Part shown: in pieces, positions 5,266-21,132 of the stretch
Layout of the letters: each line of letters begins with the position of its first letter
How positions within the stretch are numbered: the first letter of the stretch is position 1
Assembly (NCBI GenBank): GCA_947464185.1
Contig: CANHVY010000001.1
Coordinates: 62,001 to 126,000, forward strand
Source: Burkholderiales bacterium
GTDB lineage: Bacteria; Pseudomonadota; Gammaproteobacteria; Burkholderiales; Burkholderiaceae_C
Direction: 5' to 3'
DNA length: 64,000 nucleotides
The notes under the pieces: generated by a model
The model's input: only the letters and a program-made list of their open reading frames with translations
Databases searched by the model: none
Told to the model about the DNA's origin: nothing
Program-made: the position numbers and the translations under genes

Positions 5266-6254
5266 CCGCCCTGGTGCAAGTCCACGATCTGGCCAAGACC
5301 TTCGACGTCTCGGCGCCCTGGCTCAACCGGGTGGTGGAGCGCAAGCCGCGGCAGTTCGTGCACGCGGTGGACGGCGTGAGCTTTGCCATCGAGCGCGGGC
5401 GCACCCTGGCCCTGGTGGGCGAGTCCGGCTGCGGCAAGAGCACGGTGGCGCGACTGCTGGTGGGCCTGTACGGCCCCACGCGTGGCCGGGTGGAGTTCGA
5501 CGGCCAGGACACGGCCACGCTGGGAGACGGCGCGGCGCTGCGTGCGGTGCGCCGGCGCATGCAGATGATCTTCCAGGACCCGTACGCCAGCCTCAACCCG
5601 CGCTGGAAGGTGCTGGACATCGTGGCCGAACCGCTGCGCGAGCACGGCCTGGTGGAGGGCGAGGAGGCCCAGCGCGCGCGCGTGAGCGAACTGCTGCAGT
5701 CCGTGGGGCTGGCAGCGGCCGACATGGAGAAGTTCCCGCACCAGTTCTCTGGCGGGCAGCGCCAGCGCATCTCGATTGCCCGCGCGCTGGCCACGCAGCC
5801 GGAGTTCCTGGTCTGCGACGAGCCCACCTCGGCCCTGGACGTCTCGGTGCAGGCCCAGGTGCTCAACATCATGAAGGACCTGCAGCGCGCGCAGGGCCTG
5901 ACCTATCTCTTCATCTCGCACAACCTGGCGGTGGTGCGGCACGTGAGCGACGAGGTGGGCGTGATGTACCTGGGCCGTCTGGTGGAGCTCGCCCCCAAGG
6001 CCGAACTCTTTGCCCGCCCGCGCCACCCCTACACGCGCATGCTGCTGGATGCCATCCCCGACATCCACATGACGGGCCGCGCCCGCACGCCGGTGCAGGG
6101 CGAGGTGCCCAACCCGCTGAACCCTCCGGCCGGCTGCGCTTTTCACCCGCGCTGCCCGCACGCGAACGCGCGCTGCTCAGCCGAGCGGCCCGCGCTGCAG
6201 AGCATCGGCGGCATCCGCATCGCCTGCCACGCGGTGGAGGAAGGGCGGATCTGA
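5262..6254 (+). CDS. dppF: Peptide ABC transporter ATPase, DppF type
   Basis: Second ATP-binding subunit (330 residues), partner of the DppD-type protein. Walker A GESGCGKS, signature [10 protein letters not shown], and Walker [13 protein letters not shown] are all intact, and the C-terminal '[12 protein letters not shown]' domain with four cysteines (GCAFHPRC...ARC...IAC) is present. The reading frame is open further upstream, but the ATG at 5262 overlaps the dppD stop and begins [14 protein letters not shown], as the family expects. It ends the operon and converges on lysA, with a repeat-rich gap between them. Confidence 0.9.
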
Positions 6255-6294
6255 TGGGTGGGTTCAGGCGTCGGGCAGCAGCCATCTTGAGCTG

Positions 6295-6356
6295 CCGTTC
6301 GGGCTGAGCCCTTCGACGCCGCTCAGGGCGACCCTTCGACAGGCTCAGGGTGAGCG
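6295..6356. repeat. REP-like inverted elements between dppF and lysA
   Basis: Three degenerate copies of the dispersed 'CCGTTCGGGCTGAGC..TTCGA' element, in alternating orientation, fill the gap between two convergent genes. The family is the same as the elements at 48.46 kb and 53.15-53.46 kb. Placed tail to tail like this, the folded RNA could act as a bidirectional terminator; that is inference. Confidence 0.6.
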
Positions 6357-7640
6357 GGGGGATTTCGGTGGGAGCAGGTGCTCGCCGGCGAAAAGGGAGC
6401 GCACGTCCTCGCGTTCGCGGATCAGCGTGGCCTGGCCGTTGTCCACCATCACCTCGGCGGCGCGCGGCCGGCTGTTGTAGTTGCTGGCCATGACCATGCC
6501 GTAGGCGCCGGCCGACAGCACGGCCAGGCGGTCGCCGGGCTGCACGGCCAGATCCCGGTCGCGTCCCAGCCAGTCGCCGGATTCGCACACCGGCCCCACC
6601 ACGTCCCAGCGCAGCGTCGGCTCGGTGCGCTGTCGGCAGGGCTCGATGGCCATCCAGGCCTCGTACATGGCCGGGCGCACCAGGTCGTTCATGGCGGCGT
6701 CGACGATGCAGAAGTTCTTCACTTCACCGGGCTTGAGGTACAGCACTTCCGTCACCAGCACGCCGGCGTTGCCCACCAGCGAGCGCCCGGGCTCGAACAT
6801 CAGCGTGCGGTGCCCGTGGCCGCGTGCGTCGATGCGCTCGATCAGCCGTGACACCAGTTCATCCGCCCCCGGGGGGGACTCGTCGGTGTAGGTGATGCCC
6901 AGGCCGCCGCCCAGGTCCAGGTGGTGCACGCGGATACCGTGCGCTTCCACCGCTTCCACCAGGTCGAGCATGCGGTCCAGTGCGTCCAGGTAGGGCGCCA
7001 CCTGCGTGATCTGCGAGCCGATGTGGAAGTCGATGCCCGTGACCTCCAGCCCCGGCAGCGAGGCCGCGTGCCGGTAGGCCGCCACGGCGCTCTCGTGCGC
7101 GATGCCGAACTTGTTGCCCTTCAGCCCGGTGGAGATGTAGGGGTGGGTGCCGGCGTCCACGTCCGGGTTCACGCGCAGGCTCACGCGTGCCGTGCGGCTG
7201 GCGGCCACGGCTACCTCGGACAGCACGTCGAGCTCGGCTTCGCTTTCCACGTTGAAGCACAGCACGCCGGCCTCCAGCGCGCGGTGCATGTCGGCACGGC
7301 GCTTTCCCACGCCTGAGAACACGGTCTTGGCGGGGTCACCCCCCGCGGCGATGACCCGCTCCAGTTCCCCCGCCGAGACGATGTCGAAGCCGCAGCCCGC
7401 CTGTGCGAAGGTCTGCAGCACGGCCAGCGCGGAGTTGGCCTTCATGGCGTAGCACACCAGGTGCGGCCGGCCGGACAGCGCACGCTGGTAAGCGGACAGG
7501 GCAGCCTGCATGGCGCGGCGCGAGTACACGTACAGGGGCGTGCCGAAGCGCTGGCCGAGGTCTGCCAGCGAGCAGCCGTCCAGCACCAGGTCTTGCCCTT
7601 GGCGGGCCAGCCAGGGTGCGCCGGGCAGGGGAGAAGTCAT
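6345..7640 (-). CDS. lysA: Diaminopimelate decarboxylase
   Basis: PLP enzyme (431 residues) that decarboxylates meso-diaminopimelate to L-lysine, the last step of lysine synthesis. The PLP lysine is K67 in 'YAMKANS', the glycine-rich 'DLGGGLGITY' phosphate-binding stretch follows, and 'GPVCESGDWLG' carries the catalytic Cys of the fold-III decarboxylases. I chose the ATG at 7640 (MTSPLPGAPW): a 'GGAA' lies just upstream, while the in-frame ATG at 7664 has no ribosome site. It is probably transcribed with lptM, which lies upstream across a gap holding 10-nt tandem repeats. Confidence 0.95.
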   Translation of the reverse strand: MTSPLPGAPWLARQGQDLVLDGCSLADLGQRFGTPLYVYSRRAMQAALSAYQRALSGRPHLVCYAMKANSALAVLQTFAQAGCGFDIVSAGELERVIAAGGDPAKTVFSGVGKRRADMHRALEAGVLCFNVESEAELDVLSEVAVAASRTARVSLRVNPDVDAGTHPYISTGLKGNKFGIAHESAVAAYRHAASLPGLEVTGIDFHIGSQITQVAPYLDALDRMLDLVEAVEAHGIRVHHLDLGGGLGITYTDESPPGADELVSRLIERIDARGHGHRTLMFEPGRSLVGNAGVLVTEVLYLKPGEVKNFCIVDAAMNDLVRPAMYEAWMAIEPCRQRTEPTLRWDVVGPVCESGDWLGRDRDLAVQPGDRLAVLSAGAYGMVMASNYNSRPRAAEVMVDNGQATLIREREDVRSLFAGEHLLPPKSPRSP

Positions 7641-7700
7641 GTGGCAGGTTCCGAAAAAGGGCAAGAGAAGGCGGAAGAGAGCCGAAGGGGGGGGCGAAAG

Positions 7701-7750
7701 ATGGCTAAAGACGGCTAAAGACGGCTAAAGACGGCTAAAGACGGCGAAAG
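7701..7750. repeat. 10-nt tandem repeat upstream of lysA
   Basis: Five head-to-tail decamers with consensus ACGGCTAAAG: the first begins AT, the last has CGAAAG, and the three in between are identical. They occupy the lptM-lysA gap. Read on the gene strand, the unit is CTTTAGCCGT. The number of units may vary between strains because such arrays slip easily. Confidence 0.9.
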
Positions 7751-7774
7751 AAGATGGACTGGCCCGTGAAGGGC

Positions 7775-8035
7775 TCAGCGTTGCAGCGGTGCCGAGGCGG
7801 CGGCGGCGGGCGGACTTGCAGAGGGCTTCGCGGAAGGCTGGGCAGCGGGCTGGGCGGCGGCCTTGGGTGTCAGTGTCAACGGACCCTTTTGTCCGCAGCC
7901 GCCCACCGCCAAAGCCCCCAGAACCACCAGGCCCGCGAGGGTTGCCCGCTGCACCAGCCTTCCGAGGGCGGGACGCGTCGATACACTTCCCGAGATTTGT
8001 CCCGTTTCTCGTCGCGCTTCTCGTTGTGTTCCCAT
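7775..8035 (-). CDS. lptM: LPS-assembly lipoprotein LptM (YifL-like)
   Basis: Short outer-membrane lipoprotein whose mature N-terminus CGQKGPL is the hallmark of LptM/YifL, a factor helping disulfide maturation of the LptDE translocon (family knowledge). The lipobox is AVGGC; the rest is a low-complexity Ala/Pro/Ser tail. The ATG at 8035 gives 86 residues, but a GTG at 7954 preceded by 'GGAAGG' would give a compact and more typical signal peptide (MQRATLAGLVVLGALAVGGC) and would leave room for divergent promoters. I think the GTG is at least as likely. It neighbours cyaY, as yifL does in enterobacteria. Confidence 0.8.
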   Translation of the reverse strand: MGTQREARRETGQISGSVSTRPALGRLVQRATLAGLVVLGALAVGGCGQKGPLTLTPKAAAQPAAQPSAKPSASPPAAAASAPLQR

Positions 8036-10842: not shown

Positions 10843-10939
10843 GAAAGCGCCACCCTCGCGCAGAACCGTGGCATTCGGCACTATGTGCCTTTCCCGACTT
10901 TTATCGCTGATACGATCGCGCGGCAATCTATTCGGTCAA

Positions 10940-10968
10940 TTGACAGACCGCAATTGGAGTCGATTTTC
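10940..10968 (+). promoter_or_regulatory. Possible promoter for the pil operon
   Basis: A perfect TTGACA at 10940-10945 is followed, 16-17 nt later, by a poor -10 candidate (GATTTT/ATTTTC). It lies about 30-60 nt before the pilM start in the shared mrcA-pilM intergenic region. Confidence 0.35.
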
Positions 10969-10999
10969 AGGTGAAACCTTCGTTGAGGAGTATGCAGGC

Positions 11000-12079
11000 G
11001 TGAGGTTCCGTGAGGGGTGGTCAAGCAGGAAGACGGCGCCCATGATCGGCCTGGACATCAGTTCGTCCAGCCTGAAGCTGGTCGAACTCGGCCAAGACTC
11101 CTCGGGACGCTACATGGTGAACCGGATCGCTCAGCAAGCCCTGGAAGCTGGCTGGGTCGTGGAGGGCCAGGTGGAACGCTTCGACCATGTGGTCGAAGCC
11201 ACGCGGCGGCTGGTCGCGCTCAGCGGCACCAAGACCCGCCGCGTGGCCATGGCCCTTCCCCAGGCTTCGGTCATCACCCGCAAGATCACCGTGCCGGCTG
11301 GGCTTCGCGAAGACGAACTGGAAATGCAGGTCCAGGGCGAAGTCAACCAGTACGTGCCGTTCTCCATGGACGAGGTGAGCCTGGACTACTGTGTCGTGGG
11401 CCCCAGCGAGGCCGTGCCTGATGAGCTGGAAGTGATGGTGGCTGCCTGCCGCAAGGACAGGGTACGGGACCGGCAGGCCCTGGCCGAGGCTGCGGGCCTT
11501 CTGCCAGCCGTGCTGGACATCGAGTCGCATGCTTCCAGGATGGCCATCAACCGCTGGTCGGCGTGCCTGCCCCGGCTGGGCAGGAATGCAGTGATCGCCC
11601 TGTTCGAGATCGGCGCCGTCAACACCGGCCTGAAGGTGTTGTACAACGAAGATCTGATGTACGACCGGGACCAAGCCTTTGGCGGTGCACAACTGACGCA
11701 GTTGATCGCTCGGCAGTACGGATTTACCTTGACGCAGGCCGAGCGCCACAAGGTCGAGGGCACTCTGCCCGCGAGCTACCGAAGGGATCTGCTGGAACCC
11801 TACGTGGACAGCGTGGCCCAGGAGATGGGTCGCGGCCTGCAGTACTTCTTCACCAGCACTTCGCACCACAGGGTGGACCATGTGCTGCTGGCCGGCGGTA
11901 CGGCCTTGCTGGCTGGGCTGGCTGTGCGGGTGCAGGAAGCGACAGGTATCGACTGCATGGTGGTCAATCCTTTCGATTCGATGCTTCTGGGCAGCGCCGT
12001 GAGCCCTGATCGGCTGGCGCGCGAGGCCCCGGCCTACCTGGTGGCCTGTGGCTTGGCGATGCGCAGGTTCTACCCGTGA
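11000..12079 (+). CDS. pilM: Type IV pilus assembly protein PilM
   Basis: Actin-like cytoplasmic ATPase of the pilus alignment complex, which binds the N-terminal tail of PilN. 'MIGLDISSSSLKLVEL' is the phosphate-1 loop, and 'VLLAGGTALLAGLAVRVQEATGI' near the C-terminus is the adenosine-binding region. Start choice: GTG at 11000, preceded by GAGGAG and giving a short charged tail before GLDIS as in other PilM proteins (359 residues); the ATG at 11042 is the alternative. First gene of the pilMNOPQ operon, and it overlaps pilN by 4 nt (GTGA). Confidence 0.93.
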   Translation: MRFREGWSSRKTAPMIGLDISSSSLKLVELGQDSSGRYMVNRIAQQALEAGWVVEGQVERFDHVVEATRRLVALSGTKTRRVAMALPQASVITRKITVPAGLREDELEMQVQGEVNQYVPFSMDEVSLDYCVVGPSEAVPDELEVMVAACRKDRVRDRQALAEAAGLLPAVLDIESHASRMAINRWSACLPRLGRNAVIALFEIGAVNTGLKVLYNEDLMYDRDQAFGGAQLTQLIARQYGFTLTQAERHKVEGTLPASYRRDLLEPYVDSVAQEMGRGLQYFFTSTSHHRVDHVLLAGGTALLAGLAVRVQEATGIDCMVVNPFDSMLLGSAVSPDRLAREAPAYLVACGLAMRRFYP

Positions 12080-12681
12080 TCCTCATCAACCTGCTTCCCC
12101 ACCGCGAGACGCAGCGTCTGGCGCGCCGGCGTCACTTCTACCTTTGCTTGACGCTGAGCGCCGTCTCTGGGCTGGGCCTGGTGGTTGCAGGTTCGTCGGG
12201 CCTGGCCCAGATGACTTTCGTGCAGGAGGCACGCAACGCCTACTTGCAGACCGAAATCTCCCGGCTGGACGGCCAGATCAAGGACGTCACCTCTTTGCGT
12301 GTCGAGATCGATGCCTTGAAGGCGCGCCTGCAGTCCATTGAGGACCTGCAGACCGATCGCAACACCCCCGTTCACCTGCTCACCGAGGTGGCGCGTCTGA
12401 CCCCTGAAGGGCTGCACCTGAAATCGCTGGTGCAGACAGGTACCGATGTAGTGCTGACTGGCGTGGCCCAGTCCAACGAGCGCGTGTCCGAGTTCTTGCG
12501 TAACGTGTCCTCGAATGGGCAATGGCTGGAGCGCCCTGAGTTGATCGAGGTGAAGTCCGCCCGGGCCGAAGGTCCGGCCCGCGAACTTGTACGCACTTAC
12601 GAGTTTTCTTTGAGGCTGAAGGTCAAGAGGTCCACCCCGGACCGGTTGCCCGAGAGGCCGGCCAGCCCCACTTCTCCCTGA
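12076..12681 (+). CDS. pilN: Type IV pilus assembly protein PilN
   Basis: Bitopic inner-membrane protein (201 residues). The N-terminal motif INLLPHRE (residues 3-10) is the PilM-binding tail (consensus INLLPWRE). One membrane helix follows ('LCLTLSAVSGLGLVVAGSSGL'), then a periplasmic coiled-coil segment and the compact PilN fold that dimerises with PilO. It starts at a GTG overlapping the pilM stop, so translation is coupled. Confidence 0.93.
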   Translation: MILINLLPHRETQRLARRRHFYLCLTLSAVSGLGLVVAGSSGLAQMTFVQEARNAYLQTEISRLDGQIKDVTSLRVEIDALKARLQSIEDLQTDRNTPVHLLTEVARLTPEGLHLKSLVQTGTDVVLTGVAQSNERVSEFLRNVSSNGQWLERPELIEVKSARAEGPARELVRTYEFSLRLKVKRSTPDRLPERPASPTSP

Positions 12682-12689
12682 TTGCAGCG

Positions 12690-13472
12690 ATGGCCATCTT
12701 CGCGTCACTTCGAGCCAAGTCCTTGCCGTCTGTGGATCTGGATCAGATCCTTGACTCGGTCGCCGTCCAGTTCCAGGGACTGAATCTCCGGGAGCCCGGG
12801 CAGTGGCCCCTCTTGCCCAGGGCAATGGTGTGGGCGCTGACGTTGGTGCTCGTGACAGGGGCGGGGTGGGCCGTGGTGATATCGGAAGCTTCCGCGCGAC
12901 TGGAAGTTCAGCGTGCACGTGAGCCGGTGCTGCGGGACCAGTTCCGCACCAAGCTCAACCAAGCCACCAACCTGGAGGAGTTGCGAAAGCAAAAGCTGCA
13001 GGTTCAGGAGTACGTCAATCAGTTGGAGAAGCAGTTGCCTGGCAAGGCCGACCTCGATGGCGTCCTCTCCGACATCAACCAGTCCGGAATGGGTCGGGGA
13101 CTGTTGTTCGACTCCTTCAAGCCTGGGCCGATGGTGGTGCGAGAGCACTATGCCGAATGGCCGATCGCCCTGAAGGTCACGGGCAGGTACCAGGACATCG
13201 GGTCTTTCCTGGCCGATATCGCCAAGCTGCCGCGTATCGTGACCTTGCACGACATGGTCCTGACCGGTCCGGGCATGAGCCCGCCCGGCCAAACTGCAAC
13301 GCCCCATGCGGCGCCTGCTCTCATGCTGGAAGCTACCGCCAGGACTTATCGCTACTTGGCACCAGGCGAGACTGCCGCTGCGAAGACCGATGCACCGCCC
13401 CCTTCTGCTTCGAATGCTCCTGTTTCGAGGGCTGTTGCGTCGAAGGCTGCTGCGAAGGGAGAGAAGAAATGA
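12690..13472 (+). CDS. pilO: Type IV pilus assembly protein PilO
   Basis: Bitopic inner-membrane partner of PilN (260 residues): a cytoplasmic N-terminus, one helix near residues 48-66 ('VWALTLVLVTGAGWAVVI'), a coiled coil with 'LEELRKQKLQVQEYVNQLEKQLP', and a ferredoxin-like domain ending 'ALKVTGRYQDIGSFLADIAKLPRIV', the most conserved PilO stretch. The tail is Ala/Pro/Lys-rich and longer than in many homologues. It overlaps pilP by 4 nt. Confidence 0.93.
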   Translation: MAIFASLRAKSLPSVDLDQILDSVAVQFQGLNLREPGQWPLLPRAMVWALTLVLVTGAGWAVVISEASARLEVQRAREPVLRDQFRTKLNQATNLEELRKQKLQVQEYVNQLEKQLPGKADLDGVLSDINQSGMGRGLLFDSFKPGPMVVREHYAEWPIALKVTGRYQDIGSFLADIAKLPRIVTLHDMVLTGPGMSPPGQTATPHAAPALMLEATARTYRYLAPGETAAAKTDAPPPSASNAPVSRAVASKAAAKGEKK

Positions 13473-14041
13473 GGCGCGAAGGCAGGCCGATGGCGGGCAT
13501 GGCAGTCGCCCTGCGGCAGGCGTTGGTGTGGCTGGTTGCGGCTGGCGCGCTGGGGCTGACGGCCTGCAGCAGCTCTGAAGACCCGGTGCAGTCCTGGACG
13601 GAGCAGCAGCGCAGGCAAGCGAAGATCGGGCTGCAGGCGCTGCCCGCGCCCGCTCGATTCGAACCGCAAGAGTACGACGCGCAGTCAGGCCCCGACCCTT
13701 TCGACACACACAAGTTGACGTCAGAGATCAAGCTCGCCTCGACGAAGGTCAGCCCGCGGATGGCTGCGGAACTGAACCGACGGCGTGAGCCGCTGGAAGC
13801 CTACGAACTGGAGACCATGGTCATGGCAGGCACCTTGCAGCGCCAGGGCCGGGCGGTCGCTCTGGTCAGCGTCGACAAGTTGCTCTATCAAGTGAAGGTG
13901 GGAGACTACATGGGGCAGAACAACGGCCGCGTCGTGAAGATTGAAGAGGGCAAGCTTGAGCTGCGCGAGGTCGTGCAGGATGGCGCTGGCGAGTGGGTGG
14001 AGCGCACCGCTTCGCTGCAGACCCGGGAGAGCAGGCGATGA
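13469..14041 (+). CDS. pilP: Pilus assembly lipoprotein PilP
   Basis: Inner-membrane lipoprotein (190 residues) linking the PilMNO platform to the secretin PilQ. The signal peptide ends in the lipobox LTAC. A disordered stretch leads to 'YELETMVMAGTLQRQGRAVALVSVDKLLYQVKVGDYMGQNNGRVVKI', the HR-like beta-domain typical of PilP. The ATG at 13469 overlaps the pilO stop; a longer open frame exists upstream but lies inside pilO. Its stop overlaps the pilQ start. Confidence 0.93.
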   Translation: MRREGRPMAGMAVALRQALVWLVAAGALGLTACSSSEDPVQSWTEQQRRQAKIGLQALPAPARFEPQEYDAQSGPDPFDTHKLTSEIKLASTKVSPRMAAELNRRREPLEAYELETMVMAGTLQRQGRAVALVSVDKLLYQVKVGDYMGQNNGRVVKIEEGKLELREVVQDGAGEWVERTASLQTRESRR

Positions 14042-16374
14042 CCATAGATCCACACGGTACGGCGCAGGTCCGTACCTGCTGGCGATTGCGTGCCCTGGCC
14101 CTGATGCGTGCCTTGGCCTTTGCGCCGCTGCTGGCCCTGGGGCCGGCGTTGGCCTGGGCCCAGGTCAACCTGCAGGCCGTGAGCAGTTCCCTGCAAGGGG
14201 GCGTTGAAGTCGTCAGGATCGAGTTCAGCCAGCCCTTGGTACGCCTGCCGGTGGGCTTCGCCGTCCAGACGCCTCCGAGGATTGCGCTGGACTTCGCCGG
14301 GGTATCCAATGCCCTGAGTACCGGCTTGGTGGAGGTGAACCAGGGCAACCTGCGCACCGTCACAGTGGCCGAGGCGGGCGAGCGTACGCGCGTGGTGCTG
14401 AATCTGGTGCGGCCATCGGCATACCAGACGCAGATCGATGGCAACGCTTTGCTGGTGCGATTGGAAGCGGCCGATGCACCGGCCGTGGCAGGCGCTCCCG
14501 GCCCGGCGGCCATGGCGGCCGGTGCCGCCACGGCGACGACGATTGCTCCGGCTGCGACGGGCAGGGCGGCGGTCGGGGCAGCCTCGCCGCAGGCTCTTCG
14601 CGAGATCGACTTCCGCCGTGCGCCGGAAGGCACGGGGCGCATCATCGTCACCCTGCCCAGTGCGGACACGGTGGTGGACATCCGCAACCAAGGACAGAAC
14701 CTGGCCTTGGAGTTTCTGCGTGCATCGCTGCCCGAGAACTTGCGTCGGCGGCTGGATGTCACCGATTTCGGTACCCCGGTGCGTGCCGTGACAACGGTGC
14801 AGAACGGCGACAGGGTGCGCATGCTGGTGGAGGCCAGTGGCGCCTGGGAACACAGCGCCTATCAGACGGACAACCAGTTCGTGCTGGAGGTGCGGCCCGT
14901 GCGCTCCGATCCCAACCGTCTGACGCAGGGTTCGACCTACAGCGGTGATCGCCTGTCGCTGAATTTCCAGAACATCGAGGTGCGCTCTTTGTTGCAGGTG
15001 GTGGCCGACTTCACCAGCTTCAACGTTATCACCAGCGACAGCGTGACGGGCAGCCTGACACTGCGCCTGAAGGATGTTCCCTGGGACCAGGCGCTGGACA
15101 TCATCCTCCAGAGCAAGGGCCTGGGTGTGCGCAGGAGCGGCAACGTGCTGCTGGTGGCCCCCAAGGAGGAGCTCAACGCCAAAGACCAAGCCGAACTGGA
15201 AGCCCGCAACAAACTGGCTGACCTGGAACCGCTGCGTACGCAGTCCTTCCAGCTGAACTACAGCAAGGCCGAAACGCTGGCCCGCGCCCTGGGTGGAGGC
15301 GCGGGTGGCGGTGGCGGTGGTGCTTCGCCAGCGGCGGGTGGCGGGGCAGGCCAGGGCTTGGGCAGAGGGTTGGGAGGTGCCGGTTCGGGGCTGGGCGGGG
15401 CAGCGGCGGGCGGTGGCTTCCAAGGCGCTGCGCGCATCCTGTCGCCCCGCGGCAGCGTGATCGCCGAGGTGCGGACCAACCAGCTGTTCGTCACCGACAT
15501 CCCCAGCACGCTGGAGCAAGTGCAGGCGCTGATCGCCAAGGTGGACGTTCCGGTTCGGCAAGTGTTGATCGAGGCCCGGATCGTGGAGGCGGACGATACC
15601 TTTGGCCGCGCCCTGGGCGTCAAGCTGGGCGGCAACGATCTGCGCGGCGTGCAGGGCGGCGTGCCGGGCTACTCCGTGGGCGGGGGCAACTACCTGGCTT
15701 TCGGCAGCAACTACAGCAGCCTGGTGAGACAAACCGGGCAGGGCGGCTCCAGTTCCAGTTCGTTCTCAGACCCCACGTTCGTCAGTCTGCCGGCCGACAC
15801 GAGCAAGATCGGTTCAGCGGCCGCCACCTTTGCGCTTTCGCTGTTCAGCCCCAGCGCCAACCGGTTTCTCAACCTGGAACTGTCGGCGTTGGAGGCCGAG
15901 GGCAAGGGCAAGATCGTGTCCAGCCCGCGCGTGATCGTGGCCGACCAGGACACGGCGCTGATCGAGCAAGGTGAGGAACTGCCCTTCCAGAACGCTACTT
16001 CCAGCGGTGCGACGGCAGTCTCGTTCAAGAAGGCCAACCTCAGGCTGGAAGTGGTGCCGCAGATCACCCCCGAAGGCAATGTCATTCTGGATGTCATCGT
16101 GAACAAGGACAGCGTCGGGCGCACCACGCCTTCGGGATTCGCCATCGACACCAAGCACGCCAAGACGAAGGTCATGGTGCAAAACGGTGGCACGGTGGTG
16201 ATAGGCGGCATCTACATCCAGACCGAGAAGAACGATGTCAGTAAAGTGCCCTTGCTGGGCGACGTGCCGTACCTCGGCCACCTGTTCAAGAGCACGGTCC
16301 GCACGGTGAGCAAGACCGAGTTGCTGATCTTCATCACGCCGAAGATCGTCACGGATGGGGCGATGGCCAGGTGA
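14038..16374 (+). CDS. pilQ: Type IV pilus secretin PilQ
   Basis: Outer-membrane secretin (778 residues) through which the pilus passes. After a signal peptide come two AMIN peptidoglycan-binding domains (roughly residues 40-120 and 185-275), the STN/N0 domain 'LSLNFQNIEVRSLLQVVADF', an N1-type domain, and the secretin core including 'VSSPRVIVADQDTALIEQGEELPF' and 'VVIGGIYIQTEKNDVSKVPLLGDVPYLGHLF'. A Gly-rich insert (about residues 419-463) interrupts the N1 domain. The start ATG overlaps the pilP stop. The upstream frame is open but belongs to pilP. Confidence 0.95.
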   Translation: MTIDPHGTAQVRTCWRLRALALMRALAFAPLLALGPALAWAQVNLQAVSSSLQGGVEVVRIEFSQPLVRLPVGFAVQTPPRIALDFAGVSNALSTGLVEVNQGNLRTVTVAEAGERTRVVLNLVRPSAYQTQIDGNALLVRLEAADAPAVAGAPGPAAMAAGAATATTIAPAATGRAAVGAASPQALREIDFRRAPEGTGRIIVTLPSADTVVDIRNQGQNLALEFLRASLPENLRRRLDVTDFGTPVRAVTTVQNGDRVRMLVEASGAWEHSAYQTDNQFVLEVRPVRSDPNRLTQGSTYSGDRLSLNFQNIEVRSLLQVVADFTSFNVITSDSVTGSLTLRLKDVPWDQALDIILQSKGLGVRRSGNVLLVAPKEELNAKDQAELEARNKLADLEPLRTQSFQLNYSKAETLARALGGGAGGGGGGASPAAGGGAGQGLGRGLGGAGSGLGGAAAGGGFQGAARILSPRGSVIAEVRTNQLFVTDIPSTLEQVQALIAKVDVPVRQVLIEARIVEADDTFGRALGVKLGGNDLRGVQGGVPGYSVGGGNYLAFGSNYSSLVRQTGQGGSSSSSFSDPTFVSLPADTSKIGSAAATFALSLFSPSANRFLNLELSALEAEGKGKIVSSPRVIVADQDTALIEQGEELPFQNATSSGATAVSFKKANLRLEVVPQITPEGNVILDVIVNKDSVGRTTPSGFAIDTKHAKTKVMVQNGGTVVIGGIYIQTEKNDVSKVPLLGDVPYLGHLFKSTVRTVSKTELLIFITPKIVTDGAMAR

Positions 16375-16418: not shown

Positions 16419-18599
16419 ATGATCATGAACATGTGGGGCATCAAGCGAGGGGCTGCGTTCGTGCTGGCGCTTGGCCTGATGGTCGGGATGCAGGGTTGTG
16501 GGGGTGGGGGCGACAAGGCGGGGGCCTGCATCCTGTGCTCCTCGACGTCGGACACCTCGACGTCCACCTCCTCGGGCGTCCTGTCGCTCACGGCCAGCAG
16601 CACGACGGTGTCCTCCGCCAGCCCGGCCCAGATGACGGCGGTGCTGAAGGACGGCAAGGGCAACCCGGTGGCGGGCCAGGTGGTGACCTTCAAGGTCGTG
16701 AGGTCGCTGGCTGTCACGGGTGTTGCCACCGCCTTGACCAACGCCAATGGAGAAGCCTCCACCACCGTCGCGCCGGCCAGTTCCACCAGCAAGGGCGCCG
16801 ATGAAGTCACGGCCAGCATCACCTACGGCGGCAAGGTGCTGGAGAAGACCGTGGGGTTCCAGTTCAACGCCACGGACATCAGCTTGTTGTTCGCCGCGCT
16901 GCCCAGTGGTTTCACCTTGTCTGCCTACGGGCAGACTTCACTGGCCCTGAATGCCACGGGGGCTTCCGTGGGATCGCCCGTGAGCGTCACGCTGACCAGT
17001 GCCTGTGTGACCTTGGGCAAGGCCACGATTTCGCCGTCCACGGCGACCATGACCTCCGGCAGCTTGACCGTGCAGTATCTGGACAATGGCTGCGGCGCAT
17101 TGAGGGCTTCCGACATCGTGCAGGCCTCGGTGCCTGCGTCGGCGTCCACGGCCACGGTCACGGTGCCTCTCACCACGCCCAATGTCAGCAGCTTGGGCTT
17201 CGTCAGCGCCTCGCCGGAACAGATCTACCTCAAGGGGTCGGGCTTGGGCGAAAGTTCGCTCGTCACCTTCGTGGTACGGGATTCGGCAGGCAACGCGCTG
17301 CCGAACCGGGACGTCAGCTTGACCCTGCTCACAGGCGCCGGCGGCGTCACGATGGAAGGGCAGGCGGTGGGCACGTCCGTCAGCCGCACCTCGGATGCCC
17401 AGGGTCGTGTGTCGGTGCGCATCAATTCAGGGACCGTGCCGACACCCGTCCGGGTGCAGGCCAGTTTGCCCGTGGTCATCGGTGGCGTGACGACGACGGT
17501 GTCCACGGTGTCCAGCAACCTGAGCGTGGCGGTCGGCTTGCCGTCGCAGTTGAACTTCTCGATGTCCCAGAAGACGCTCAACATCGAGGGTTTCGATTAC
17601 GACGGCATCTCCAACACCTACAACATCATTGCCGCGGATCGCAGCGGGAACCCGGTGCCTGCGGGGACGACCATCAGTTTCAGGGCGGAGGGCGGTCAGG
17701 TCGTGGCCACCGCGCAGACGCAGTTGGTCGATGGCATCGCCCGTACCAGTGTGAACTTTGTGTCTGCCCAACCCAAACCTGCGGATGGCCGGGTCACCAT
17801 CACGGCCTACGCATTGGGCGAGGAGTCGTTCGAAGACCTCAACGGCAACAACATTTACGACCCCGCAGAGCCTTTCCAGGACCTGGGCCATGTGTTTTTT
17901 GACCGCCGGTACAACGGTGCATACGAGGCGGGCGAGGACGAGTTCCTGTCGCTGGAGATCAATGGAAGCTCGGCCTGCGTGCCTCCCGCAAACAGCCGGC
18001 TGGCGCTGGGTGTTCAGATTCCTTCCAGGCCGGGCACCTGCGACGGCGTCTGGAGTGGCGCCGGCAAGGTGTATGTGCGCAGGGCCGCCGAGACCGTTCT
18101 GTCGAAATCCACTCCACGGCCTTTGTGGTACGTAGACCCTGACCGTGTAGCGCTTACAGATTCGGGTCTGAGATTCTCATGCGACACGATCACTCTTCAG
18201 GTTGGGCCGTCGCCCACGAACACGGCAGTGTTTGCGAGGGCCATTGGCGCTGTCTGGTACTCTGGCTCGACGAACACCGTCGCAAACGTGGACGGAAGCT
18301 TTTTGCTCTGGGTTGCAGATTCCAACGACGCCCGCTTCAACCCCATGGCGGCAGGAACCACGGTTGAAGCCTCCACGACAACCACCGGACTGACGACGCG
18401 AGTGGCTGGGGGAAGCCCCATAGCCAGCACTTCTGAACCCACGCTGGCTGCAGTGACTGTTACTTTTGGTTCTGACTCCACCGGTGCCCCCATTTCAATC
18501 GGGACCGTTTCGGTCAAGTTCACGTCTCCCAGTGGAACCTCCACTTCCGTTCCCATCACTGTCGTTAAGGGCGACCGCCCCGACGTCTGCACTCCATGA
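16419..18599 (+). CDS. Large Ig-like (Big_1/invasin-type) lipoprotein in the pil-aro operon
   Basis: Predicted 726-residue surface or periplasmic lipoprotein with the lipobox MQGC (Cys27) followed by a Gly/Ser/Thr linker. At least three bacterial Ig-like modules can be seen: strands such as 'QMTAVLKDGKGNPVAGQVVTFKV' with 'TNANGEASTTV', 'TFVVRDSAGNALPNRDVSLTL' with 'SDAQGRVSVRI', and 'NIIAADRSGNPVPAGTTISFRA'. From D473 comes a calcium-loop-like 'DLNGNNIYDPAEPF' and then 'DRRYNGAYEAGEDEF'. Start choice: ATG at 16419, 9 nt after GGA; GTG at 16371 overlaps pilQ. It overlaps aroK by 4 nt, so it is cotranscribed. Function unknown; adhesion or pilus support is inference. Confidence 0.85.
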   Translation: MIMNMWGIKRGAAFVLALGLMVGMQGCGGGGDKAGACILCSSTSDTSTSTSSGVLSLTASSTTVSSASPAQMTAVLKDGKGNPVAGQVVTFKVVRSLAVTGVATALTNANGEASTTVAPASSTSKGADEVTASITYGGKVLEKTVGFQFNATDISLLFAALPSGFTLSAYGQTSLALNATGASVGSPVSVTLTSACVTLGKATISPSTATMTSGSLTVQYLDNGCGALRASDIVQASVPASASTATVTVPLTTPNVSSLGFVSASPEQIYLKGSGLGESSLVTFVVRDSAGNALPNRDVSLTLLTGAGGVTMEGQAVGTSVSRTSDAQGRVSVRINSGTVPTPVRVQASLPVVIGGVTTTVSTVSSNLSVAVGLPSQLNFSMSQKTLNIEGFDYDGISNTYNIIAADRSGNPVPAGTTISFRAEGGQVVATAQTQLVDGIARTSVNFVSAQPKPADGRVTITAYALGEESFEDLNGNNIYDPAEPFQDLGHVFFDRRYNGAYEAGEDEFLSLEINGSSACVPPANSRLALGVQIPSRPGTCDGVWSGAGKVYVRRAAETVLSKSTPRPLWYVDPDRVALTDSGLRFSCDTITLQVGPSPTNTAVFARAIGAVWYSGSTNTVANVDGSFLLWVADSNDARFNPMAAGTTVEASTTTTGLTTRVAGGSPIASTSEPTLAAVTVTFGSDSTGAPISIGTVSVKFTSPSGTSTSVPITVVKGDRPDVCTP

Positions 18600-19170: not shown

Positions 19171-20301
19171 ATGGCAACCGATCCCGCGCAAGCGCCCCAG
19201 TCAGGGACGCAGACGGTCACCGTCGACACCGGGCGGGAGCGCTACGACATCGTCATCGGGCGCGGCCTGCTGGGCCGGTCGCAGAGCTGGACAGGCCTGC
19301 CCCGGGCCGCACAGGCGGTGGTGGTGAGCAATGCGACCATCGCCCCCTTGTGGGCCGCGCGTCTGGTGCAGGCGCTGCAGCCCCACTACCGCCAGGTGAC
19401 GGTGATCGAGCTGCCCGATGGCGAGGCGCACAAGGACTGGCCGGCGCTGAACACCATCTTCGACCACCTGCTGACCCACGGTGCGGACCGCAAGACGGTG
19501 CTTTTCGCGCTGGGCGGCGGCGTGGTGGGCGACATCACCGGCTTTGCCGCCGGCTGCTACATGCGCGGCGTGCCCTTCGTGCAGGTGCCCACCACGCTGC
19601 TGGCGCAGGTGGATTCCTCGGTGGGCGGCAAGACGGCCATCAACCATGCGCTGGGCAAGAACATGGTCGGCCTGTTCTACCAGCCGCAGCGCGTGGTGTG
19701 CGATCTGGACACGCTGCAGACGCTGCCGCAGCGCGAGTTCATTGCCGGCCTGGCCGAGGTGATCAAGTACGGACCCATCGCCGATGAGGGGTTCCTGGGC
19801 TGGATCGAGGGCCATCTGGAGCCGCTGCTGGAGCGCCAGCCTGCGGCCATGGCGCACGCGATTCGGCGCTCCTGCGAGATCAAGGCGCAGGTGGTGGGGC
19901 AGGACGAGAAGGAAGGCGGGCTGCGTGCCATCCTGAACTTCGGCCACACCTTCGGCCATGCCATCGAATCGGGTCTGGGCTACGGCCAGTGGCTGCACGG
20001 CGAGGCCGTGGGCTGCGGCATGCGCATGGCCACCGATCTGTCGGTGCGCCTGGGCTTGTTGCCGCCGGCGGCCCTGCAACGCATGCACGATCTGCTGGTG
20101 CGGGCCGGGTTGCCGGTGCGCGCGCCCGACCTGGGCGCCGATCGCTACCTGGAATGGATGGGCCGGGACAAGAAAGCCGAGGCCGGCGAGATCCGCTTCG
20201 TGGTGCTGCAGGCCCTGGGGCGTGCAGCCGTGCAGGGTGCGCCAGACGAGGTGGTGTGGCAAGTGCTGCAGGCCGCGGTTCGGGTGGGCGTGCCCGCCTG
20301 A
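19171..20301 (+). CDS. aroB: 3-dehydroquinate synthase
   Basis: 376-residue NAD- and metal-dependent enzyme converting DAHP to 3-dehydroquinate. Motifs seen: '[23 protein letters not shown]', '[35 protein letters not shown]', and the metal-binding 'AEVIKYG' and '[12 protein letters not shown]' (Glu and two His). The ATG at 19171 follows 'GAGGCAGGAG'; the long upstream frame lies inside aroK and is not coding. Last gene of the pil-aro transcript. Confidence 0.95.
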
Positions 20302-20415: not shown

Positions 20416-21132
20416 ATGGCCCGCCTGCCCCGCATCGCCCTGCCCAGCCACGCCCACCATGTGGTGCAGCGGGGCCACAACCGCCAGCCCATCGTGCTGG
20501 ACGATACGGACCGCCACCACTGGCGCCAGGTGCTGGCGGATGCGGCGGTGACGCACCGCGTGGACGTGCACGCCTGGCTGCTGCTGGACGACCACTTCCA
20601 TCTGGTGCTGACGCCTTCCACCGCGGAGGGCCTGGGGCGGATGATGCAGTCGCTGGCGCGGCGGCACGCGGCCGAATTCAACCGGCGGCATGGCCGAAGC
20701 GGCACGCTGTGGGACGGGCGCTTCCGCTCTTCACTGGTGCAGCCGGGTGCCTGGCTGGCCGACTGCATGCTGTACGTGGAATCACATCCCAGCCGTACGG
20801 GCGCTGGGGGTGCCGCGCTGGAGTGGCCCTGGTCCAGCCTGGCCCATCATCTGGGGGCCCGCAGAGACCCGCTGGTGGTGGAACCATCCGCGTGGTGGAC
20901 TCTGGGCAACACCCCCTTCGAGCGCGAAGCGGTGTGGCGCCAACGGCTGGAGGTGGCGTTGGCACCGGAGGTGGTACAGCGCATCACCCAGGCCACAAGG
21001 CGCGGCTGGCCCGTGGGCGACGCAGCGTTTCTCCAGAGTCTGGAGCCGGCCACAGGCCGTGCCATGGTGCCCCGGCCCCGAGGCCGCCCTGTCCGTGCCA
21101 GCGTGCCCGGCGCGCATGACGGTTCCGGATAA
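20416..21132 (+). CDS. REP-associated tyrosine transposase (RAYT, Y1/IS200-like)
   Basis: 238-residue single-domain HUH transposase of the RAYT type. The HUH motif is HFH at residues 60-62 in 'LLLDDHFHLVLTP'; the nucleophile is probably Tyr120 in 'CMLYVESHP', aligned with the YxELNP motif of relatives. 'GTLWDGRFRSSLV' is diagnostic of the family, and a basic 'GRP' tail is present. Such proteins usually act on dispersed REP-like hairpins rather than on their own ends. No terminal inverted repeats flank the gene. The REP-like elements elsewhere in the window could be its substrate, but that is only inference. Confidence 0.85.
   Translation: MARLPRIALPSHAHHVVQRGHNRQPIVLDDTDRHHWRQVLADAAVTHRVDVHAWLLLDDHFHLVLTPSTAEGLGRMMQSLARRHAAEFNRRHGRSGTLWDGRFRSSLVQPGAWLADCMLYVESHPSRTGAGGAALEWPWSSLAHHLGARRDPLVVEPSAWWTLGNTPFEREAVWRQRLEVALAPEVVQRITQATRRGWPVGDAAFLQSLEPATGRAMVPRPRGRPVRASVPGAHDGSG

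Follow-up and report, generated by a model that had tools for sequence, protein, structure and literature searches.

Among the described systems closest to the one reported here is InvL of Acinetobacter baumannii. According to excerpts of two reports (PMC9245377, PMC12802150), InvL is a lipoprotein with Ig-like domains that is exported by the type II secretion system (T2SS), and lipoproteins exported in this way carry GGG or ND(N/D) after the cysteine and require GspN. The gene studied here lies at positions 16419 to 18599 of a 64,000-nt stretch of a Burkholderiales bacterium genome (contig CANHVY010000001.1, positions 62,001 to 126,000; hereafter the window). It encodes a lipoprotein that resembles InvL in its lipobox, in the GGG that follows the cysteine, in its tandem invasin-like Ig domains and also, as far as the same excerpts describe InvL, in that a dissimilar lipoprotein gene can take its place while the neighbouring genes are conserved (for InvL, 74% of isolates against 23%). 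According to those excerpts, InvL differs in its length (492 residues against 726), is predicted to bear a lectin-like cap, and is encoded between phosphatase and dihydrolipoyl dehydrogenase genes, whereas the gene of the window belongs to the pil-aro row, in a slot with several classes of occupants; of the two proteins, InvL is the only one for which T2SS export has been demonstrated. PilY1/PilC pilus-tip adhesins are likewise linked to pili, and a PilY1 gene is found in the same interval in some relatives, but the slot protein has no PilY1 beta-propeller match. TcpF and CofJ are also non-pilin proteins encoded within a type IV pilus operon, but they are soluble and belong to type IVb systems. 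Finally, the passengers of intimin and invasin (6tpl, 1cwv, 1f00) are similar strings of Ig domains, but they are anchored by an N-terminal beta-barrel (PMC9245377, excerpt), whereas the anchor of the slot protein is a lipid. A search mostly outside the subscription literature found no published description of this gene between pilQ and aroK.

The gene and the two genes that border its slot are as follows.
14038-16374, + strand: pilQ, secretin of the type IVa pilus, bordering the slot on the left (TIGR02515, E 6e-146)
16419-18599, + strand: slot lipoprotein gene, class I (invasin-like Ig lipoprotein), open reading frame (ORF) of 726 residues
18596-19162, + strand: aroK, shikimate kinase, bordering the slot on the right (Pfam SKI, E 1.7e-48)

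With pilQ read from the ATG at 14038 to the stop at 16374, a 44-nt gap separates the pilQ stop from the slot ORF, and the aroK start overlaps the end of the slot gene via ATGA. The sequence-only reading had described a 726-residue lipoprotein lodged between pilQ and aroK, tied to aroK by a 4-nt overlap and settled in the pil-aro row; the ORF, the lipobox and the family matches of both neighbours bear out the first point, the ATGA the second and synteny across relatives the third. The slot protein of the window (P0001) has a single match within its own genome. Chance or an assembly error is an unlikely cause of this arrangement, because other genomes show the same gene in the same arrangement.

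A new finding of this analysis is that the interval between pilQ and aroK is a swap slot. We examined 81 genomes of the window's genus group, of which 72 were resolved at this interval: a lipoprotein gene occupied the slot in 65 and the slot was empty in 6. Clustering of 68 slot proteins gave three mutually dissimilar C-terminal classes and four singletons, counts that hinge on the blastp thresholds used (E 1e-8, single linkage, low-complexity filter). The length of the slot protein ranges from 129 to 1784 residues. A search of 148 genomes (own included) with P0001 gave matches in 31, a figure that underestimates occupancy since at most seven candidates were scored per genome and the other classes are invisible to P0001. 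Most of the 30 loci kept had PilQ upstream and AroK downstream, and wider stretches settled most of the others; many of the genomes are fragmented metagenome-assembled genomes, and named isolates have the same arrangement.

Replacement is sharply delimited. In 7 of the 20 pairs compared, PilQ C-termini were 95-99.5% identical although the neighbouring occupant was dissimilar or missing; for example, G039, of class I, and G007, of class II, are 99.5% identical over the PilQ C-terminus (195 residues) and 91.9% identical in AroK, and no blastp match was found between their slot proteins. At the nucleotide level (blastn), we compared seven pairs that differ in their occupant, including one in which only one of the two slots is filled. 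They showed 81-93% homology that stopped at or near the pilQ stop and resumed at or near the aroK start, with none between, even at a PilQ C-terminal identity of 99.5%, except that in L012/L073 it extended ~130 nt further, through the signal-peptide region. An eighth pair, of the same class, aligned throughout. We also mapped the occupants onto a tree of the PilQ C-terminus and AroK (71 rows, a quick method with many weakly supported branches). Classes I and II required 16 changes, compared to a mean of 15.8 (10-20) in 300 shuffles, 196 of which were at or below 16; on this tree, the distribution of the two classes does not follow the core-gene phylogeny. Exchange between close relatives points to a module for contact or adhesion that is linked to the pilus and changes fast. 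Viral contigs (60 pattern hits) yielded no confirmed relative, and plasmids searched with P0001 yielded none, classes II and III not having been searched in these collections; a phage- or plasmid-borne cassette was therefore not seen there.

The slot protein of the window is organized as follows.
16419-16499, + strand: signal peptide and lipobox (by eye and regular expression), lipidated Cys27 encoded at 16497-16499
16500-16574, + strand: GGGG start resembling a sorting motif, followed by a low-complexity tether (sequence; pLDDT <50; motif compared with an excerpt of PMC12802150)
16575-17822, + strand: four tandem Ig-like domains (Pfam, AlphaFold model, VIA comparison)
17835-17870, + strand: EF-hand-like loop, D473-E484 (conserved alignment columns)
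18054-18596, + strand: C-terminal beta domain(s), residues ~546-726, presumed distal tip (AlphaFold model)
18099-18596, + strand: mosaic 3' module, residues 561-726 (GC3 0.63; lower identity to near relatives)

The lipobox, MQG|C, places the cysteine at residue 27. The AlphaFold model (pLDDT 85.9, pTM 0.62) predicts Ig domains in a string, with beta structure throughout; pLDDT falls below 50 at residues 19-37 and 39-49. The domain borders (~53-151, 152-254, 255-373 and 374-468) were placed by eye with the help of the DSSP line and the VIA ranges. Pfam Big_1 (PF02369) matches three stretches (E 3e-10, 40.5 bits, compared to a gathering score of 34.9), and the best VIA structure matches are the passenger domains of intimin and invasin, 6tpl, 1cwv and 1f00, so that the predicted protein has the invasin-like Ig fold of InvL-type lipoproteins. 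Plain Foldseek matches (axoneme, complement, titin and S-layer proteins) were generic multi-Ig hits and were set aside for the VIA comparison. Neither the model nor the Pfam list contains an N-terminal outer-membrane beta-barrel, the order being lipobox, tether, Ig domains. Intimins and invasins also carry a C-terminal lectin-like cap; the C-terminal beta domain of the slot protein was modelled and compared as part of the whole chain. At E up to 1, the Pfam list of P0001 contains neither the PilY1 beta-propeller (PF05567) nor a TPR or LysM family. Several Ig-like modules and a calcium-loop-like sequence had been read from the letters: the former agree with the Big_1 score and the predicted fold, and the latter with a loop that resembles an EF-hand calcium site, in which D473, N475, G476, N478 and E484 are invariant or nearly so across the family. 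The structure prediction proposed by the same reading gave the Ig string described above, a fold that favours its suggestion of an adhesin-like protein.

The 3' quarter had been noted as less GC-biased and possibly acquired separately. Indeed, the G+C content at third codon positions (GC3) is 0.87 for residues 1-240, 0.85 for 241-480, 0.78 for 481-560 and 0.63 for 561-726, while the largest fall over the last 166 codons among 14 relatives is 0.08. Identity to P0005, which is among the nearest homologues of comparable length, is 85-96% in 60-residue blocks over residues 61-480, 73% over 481-540 and 45-60% beyond, the main fall being near residue 565 in the pairwise alignment. By these measures, the window copy is a mosaic over its last ~165 codons, in support of a separately acquired module. 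The other close rows lose C-terminal identity in the same way as P0005; since they all agree, the C-terminal module of the window copy stands apart from its nearest relatives generally, not from one. The number of stalk domains also varies: the first Ig domain is repeated in near relatives, with four copies in P0003 and three in P0004 (counted by eye), and a slot frame of 1784 residues (G029:C451:777-6059, L237) contains eleven P0001 matches, an extreme stalk expansion.

We then considered the family beyond the genus group. A single-sequence scan of genome contigs confirmed no relative; an alignment scan of named genomes gave 419 pattern matches and confirmed 363 of them, and we examined the 80 with the highest similarity. 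Among these 80, 49 are in the order PilQ-gene-AroK, 10 have PilQ upstream and AroK out of reach, two lie on cut contigs (L143, L167), two are convergent beside the pil-aro row (L170, L174), one is elsewhere in the pil-aro region (L158) and one is divergent from a PilQ operon (L162). Six lie downstream of Tad genes, one in an MSHA-like operon (L149, whose secretin scores 246.9 bits for MshL against a cut-off of 250.2 and whose adjacent ATPase matches TIGR03015, also below cut-off), one directly before gspD-gspE (L155) and one directly after gspN (L168). The remaining six (L150, L156, L159, L164, L172, L178) have no such system within 6 kb, on the evidence of ORF reading and of tblastn run with queries from pil and Tad systems, no family scan being made; key neighbours of L149, L155, L162, L168 and L176 were checked against NCBIfam and Pfam. 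By record title, holders include Rubrivivax gelatinosus DSM 1709 (L119), a laboratory strain whose genome has the arrangement of the window, as well as Rubrivivax rivuli, Roseateles, Ideonella, Inhella, Zoogloea and, in a Tad context, Janthinobacterium. Three homologues in the 148-genome search were also away from pilQ (L035, L037, L038); L035 is beside Tad genes, and its ATPase best matches the TadA family with 344 bits, under the model cut-off of 373. A class I profile run on 300 order-level genomes gave 21 matches, including the window's own and four already seen; among the 17 stretches from 16 other genomes, five are PilQ-linked, one is ~3 kb from Tad-type genes (L219) and one contig was too short. 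These contexts, compared with those of the best 80, show that linkage holds strongly in the class I core but weakly among the distant members. The pilus or secretin link proposed by the sequence-only reading is supported, with homologues in Tad, MSHA-like and T2SS operons as well.

As for export, P0001 starts with C-GGGG and thus carries the GGG or ND(N/D) motif at P2'-P4' (motif as given in an excerpt of PMC12802150). GGG is found in 58 of 69 slot proteins and at least five G/S/N/D in P2'-P8' in 64 of 69; the cysteine of L072 was misplaced by the regular expression, its actual start being CGVGN. Other scans for lipoprotein candidates in the sampled stretches gave 7 of 357 and 9 of 358 ORFs, the slot gene included and some clearly false; because of this background, the motif cannot be called enriched. 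The genome has GspN (PF01203, G000:C1:46546-47316) and three secretin domains, one of which lies beside gspN (C1:44522-45025) and, to judge from its position, is GspD. The InvL-like motif, together with GspN and the secretins, leads us to think surface display via a secretin machine likely. Two other candidate lipoproteins of this genome start with C-GGG (L192, 16702-17598, - strand; L206, 12327-13796, + strand).

The explanation that we favour, with confidence slightly above even, is that the gene encodes a variable outer-membrane lipoprotein, swapped in the pilQ-aroK cassette, exported via a secretin machine and serving as an adhesin or contact module beside the pilus. It builds on gene order, lipobox, predicted fold, cassette replacement, mosaic tip and links to several secretin machines, all established by computation. 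The predicted invasin-like stalk would probably extend off the cell surface and bear a changeable C-terminal tip facing outward; homologous recombination in the conserved flanking genes would swap the whole occupant, and recombination within the gene would swap the tip or add stalk domains. Export would most likely be by a secretin-type machine, either the T2SS with GspN in trans or PilQ itself, and surfaces, partners or phages would exert the diversifying pressure. We infer recombination, the export route and the source of pressure, and the function is proposed by analogy. Several points weigh against this explanation. Ten of the 17 distant order-level loci have no linked secretin system within ~6 kb (L228 was judged by tblastn alone, and L231 has a GspE-like ATPase gene ~1 kb away). 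The scattered homologues that the sequence-only reading had named as contrary evidence are thus found in part, at those ten loci and at six of the 80 most similar loci in named genomes. Among the 8 other lipoprotein candidates from sampled stretches of the genome, some of them apparently false, 2 carry GGG as well, which makes the motif weak evidence. GspN is missing from 9 of 70 occupied genomes, most of them fragmented, versus 4 of 11 empty ones, a co-occurrence that is not significant (Fisher p 0.07; a few genomes of each set are from beyond the genus group), and these nine are possible counter-examples to T2SS dependence. Multi-domain Ig folds resemble many unrelated proteins, and the whole-chain root-mean-square deviation is large. 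Taken over all slot states, the tree needs 31 changes, whereas the shuffles average 35.5 and 8 of the 300 reach so low a number; the other states thus carry some phylogenetic signal. Surface exposure and adhesion, lastly, are properties that we infer.

Three other explanations were weighed. The protein could be an accessory of PilQ, that is, an outer-membrane lipoprotein that assembles, anchors or gates the secretin as pilotins and TsaP do, its Ig string lying within the periplasm or around the pore. A secretin gene is indeed adjacent in most close relatives examined, and other homologues neighbour MshL-like or GspD genes or belong to Tad operons. Pilotins are marked by TPR and TsaP by LysM, however, and neither family is in the Pfam list of P0001, whose model is all-beta; moreover, the occupant varies more than tenfold in length and is dissimilar or absent beside closely similar PilQ C-termini. 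Since such exchange or loss should not be tolerated in a fixed ring component, we regard this explanation as quite improbable, and the conserved structural partner of PilQ suggested from the sequence is not upheld. Alternatively, a generic variable surface lipoprotein (decoy, phage barrier or recognition tag) could use the pil-aro promoter while being functionally untied to pili. The independence of classes I and II from the core phylogeny, the empty slots and the distant homologues at unrelated loci speak for such a passenger, but a random site hardly accounts for the homologues that lie in Tad, MSHA-like and T2SS operons or for the presence of PilY1 genes in the pilQ-aroK interval, and we hold this explanation to be unlikely. 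Only a little less doubtful, in our judgement, is that PilQ brings the lipoprotein to the cell surface as dedicated cargo, as would the respective secretins of the Tad, MSHA-like and T2SS loci. A secretin machine is the common factor of the linked loci, but we know of no lipoprotein cargo of a type IVa pilus secretin, and GspN and the adjacent second secretin could provide PilQ-independent export in the same genome. A precedent is TcpF, which is encoded in the TCP (toxin-coregulated pilus) operon and whose secretion is pilus-dependent (excerpt of PMC9565799).

The machinery of type IV pili is conserved, but its partners at the surface must vary. With occupants exchanged between close relatives, a precise cassette site within the core pil-aro row offers a natural series on the selection of surface diversity at the pilus base, for which attachment, kin contact and phage are candidate selectors, and makes testable both the export of lipoproteins by type IVa pilus secretins and the service of pilus-adjacent lipoprotein genes by the T2SS and GspN. 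A more far-reaching picture, which we hold to be unlikely, is that type IVa pilus, Tad, MSHA-like and T2SS machines each have their own secretin-displayed lipoprotein cargo and that, in Rubrivivax-like bacteria, this cargo is encoded in the pilQ cassette, which switches between dissimilar invasin-like adhesins; the cassette would then be a swappable, pilus-exported locus of surface identity or adhesion.

The slot has further occupants. In L033 (2700-9130) and L034 (1600-8540), ~6.9 kb separates the lipoprotein gene from aroK and contains a PilY1-like gene on the opposite strand, confirmed by Pfam (PF05567) for the neighbour protein of L033. In L050 (1300-8280), a PilY1 gene occupies the interval, in which the scan found no lipoprotein; pilin-like genes were read by eye beside the PilY1-like gene in all three, and L078 combines a lipoprotein of class II with a distant match to PilY1. 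L043 (2545-7776, + strand), from a close relative of the window's genome, has a 1744-residue slot lipoprotein with three stretches of T2SS-T3SS_pil_N, a family named by Pfam after pilus formation proteins. Small slot lipoproteins of 129-147 residues occur in L061, L062, L065, L067, L068, L072 and L084; six that were aligned share two further conserved cysteines, and the one that was scanned had no Pfam match. L158 has two Ig lipoproteins in the pil-aro region (954-2927 and 5824-7854), before aroK and after aroB.

The rest of the row in the window is as follows.
10868-14041, + strand: ORFs that we take to be pilM-pilN-pilO-pilP (order and similarity in relatives; pilM start uncertain)
19171-20301, + strand: syntenic ORF, presumably aroB

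Downstream of aroB, at 20416-21132 (+ strand), lies a gene resembling a REP-associated tyrosine transposase (NCBIfam NF047646, E 3e-15, below cut-off).
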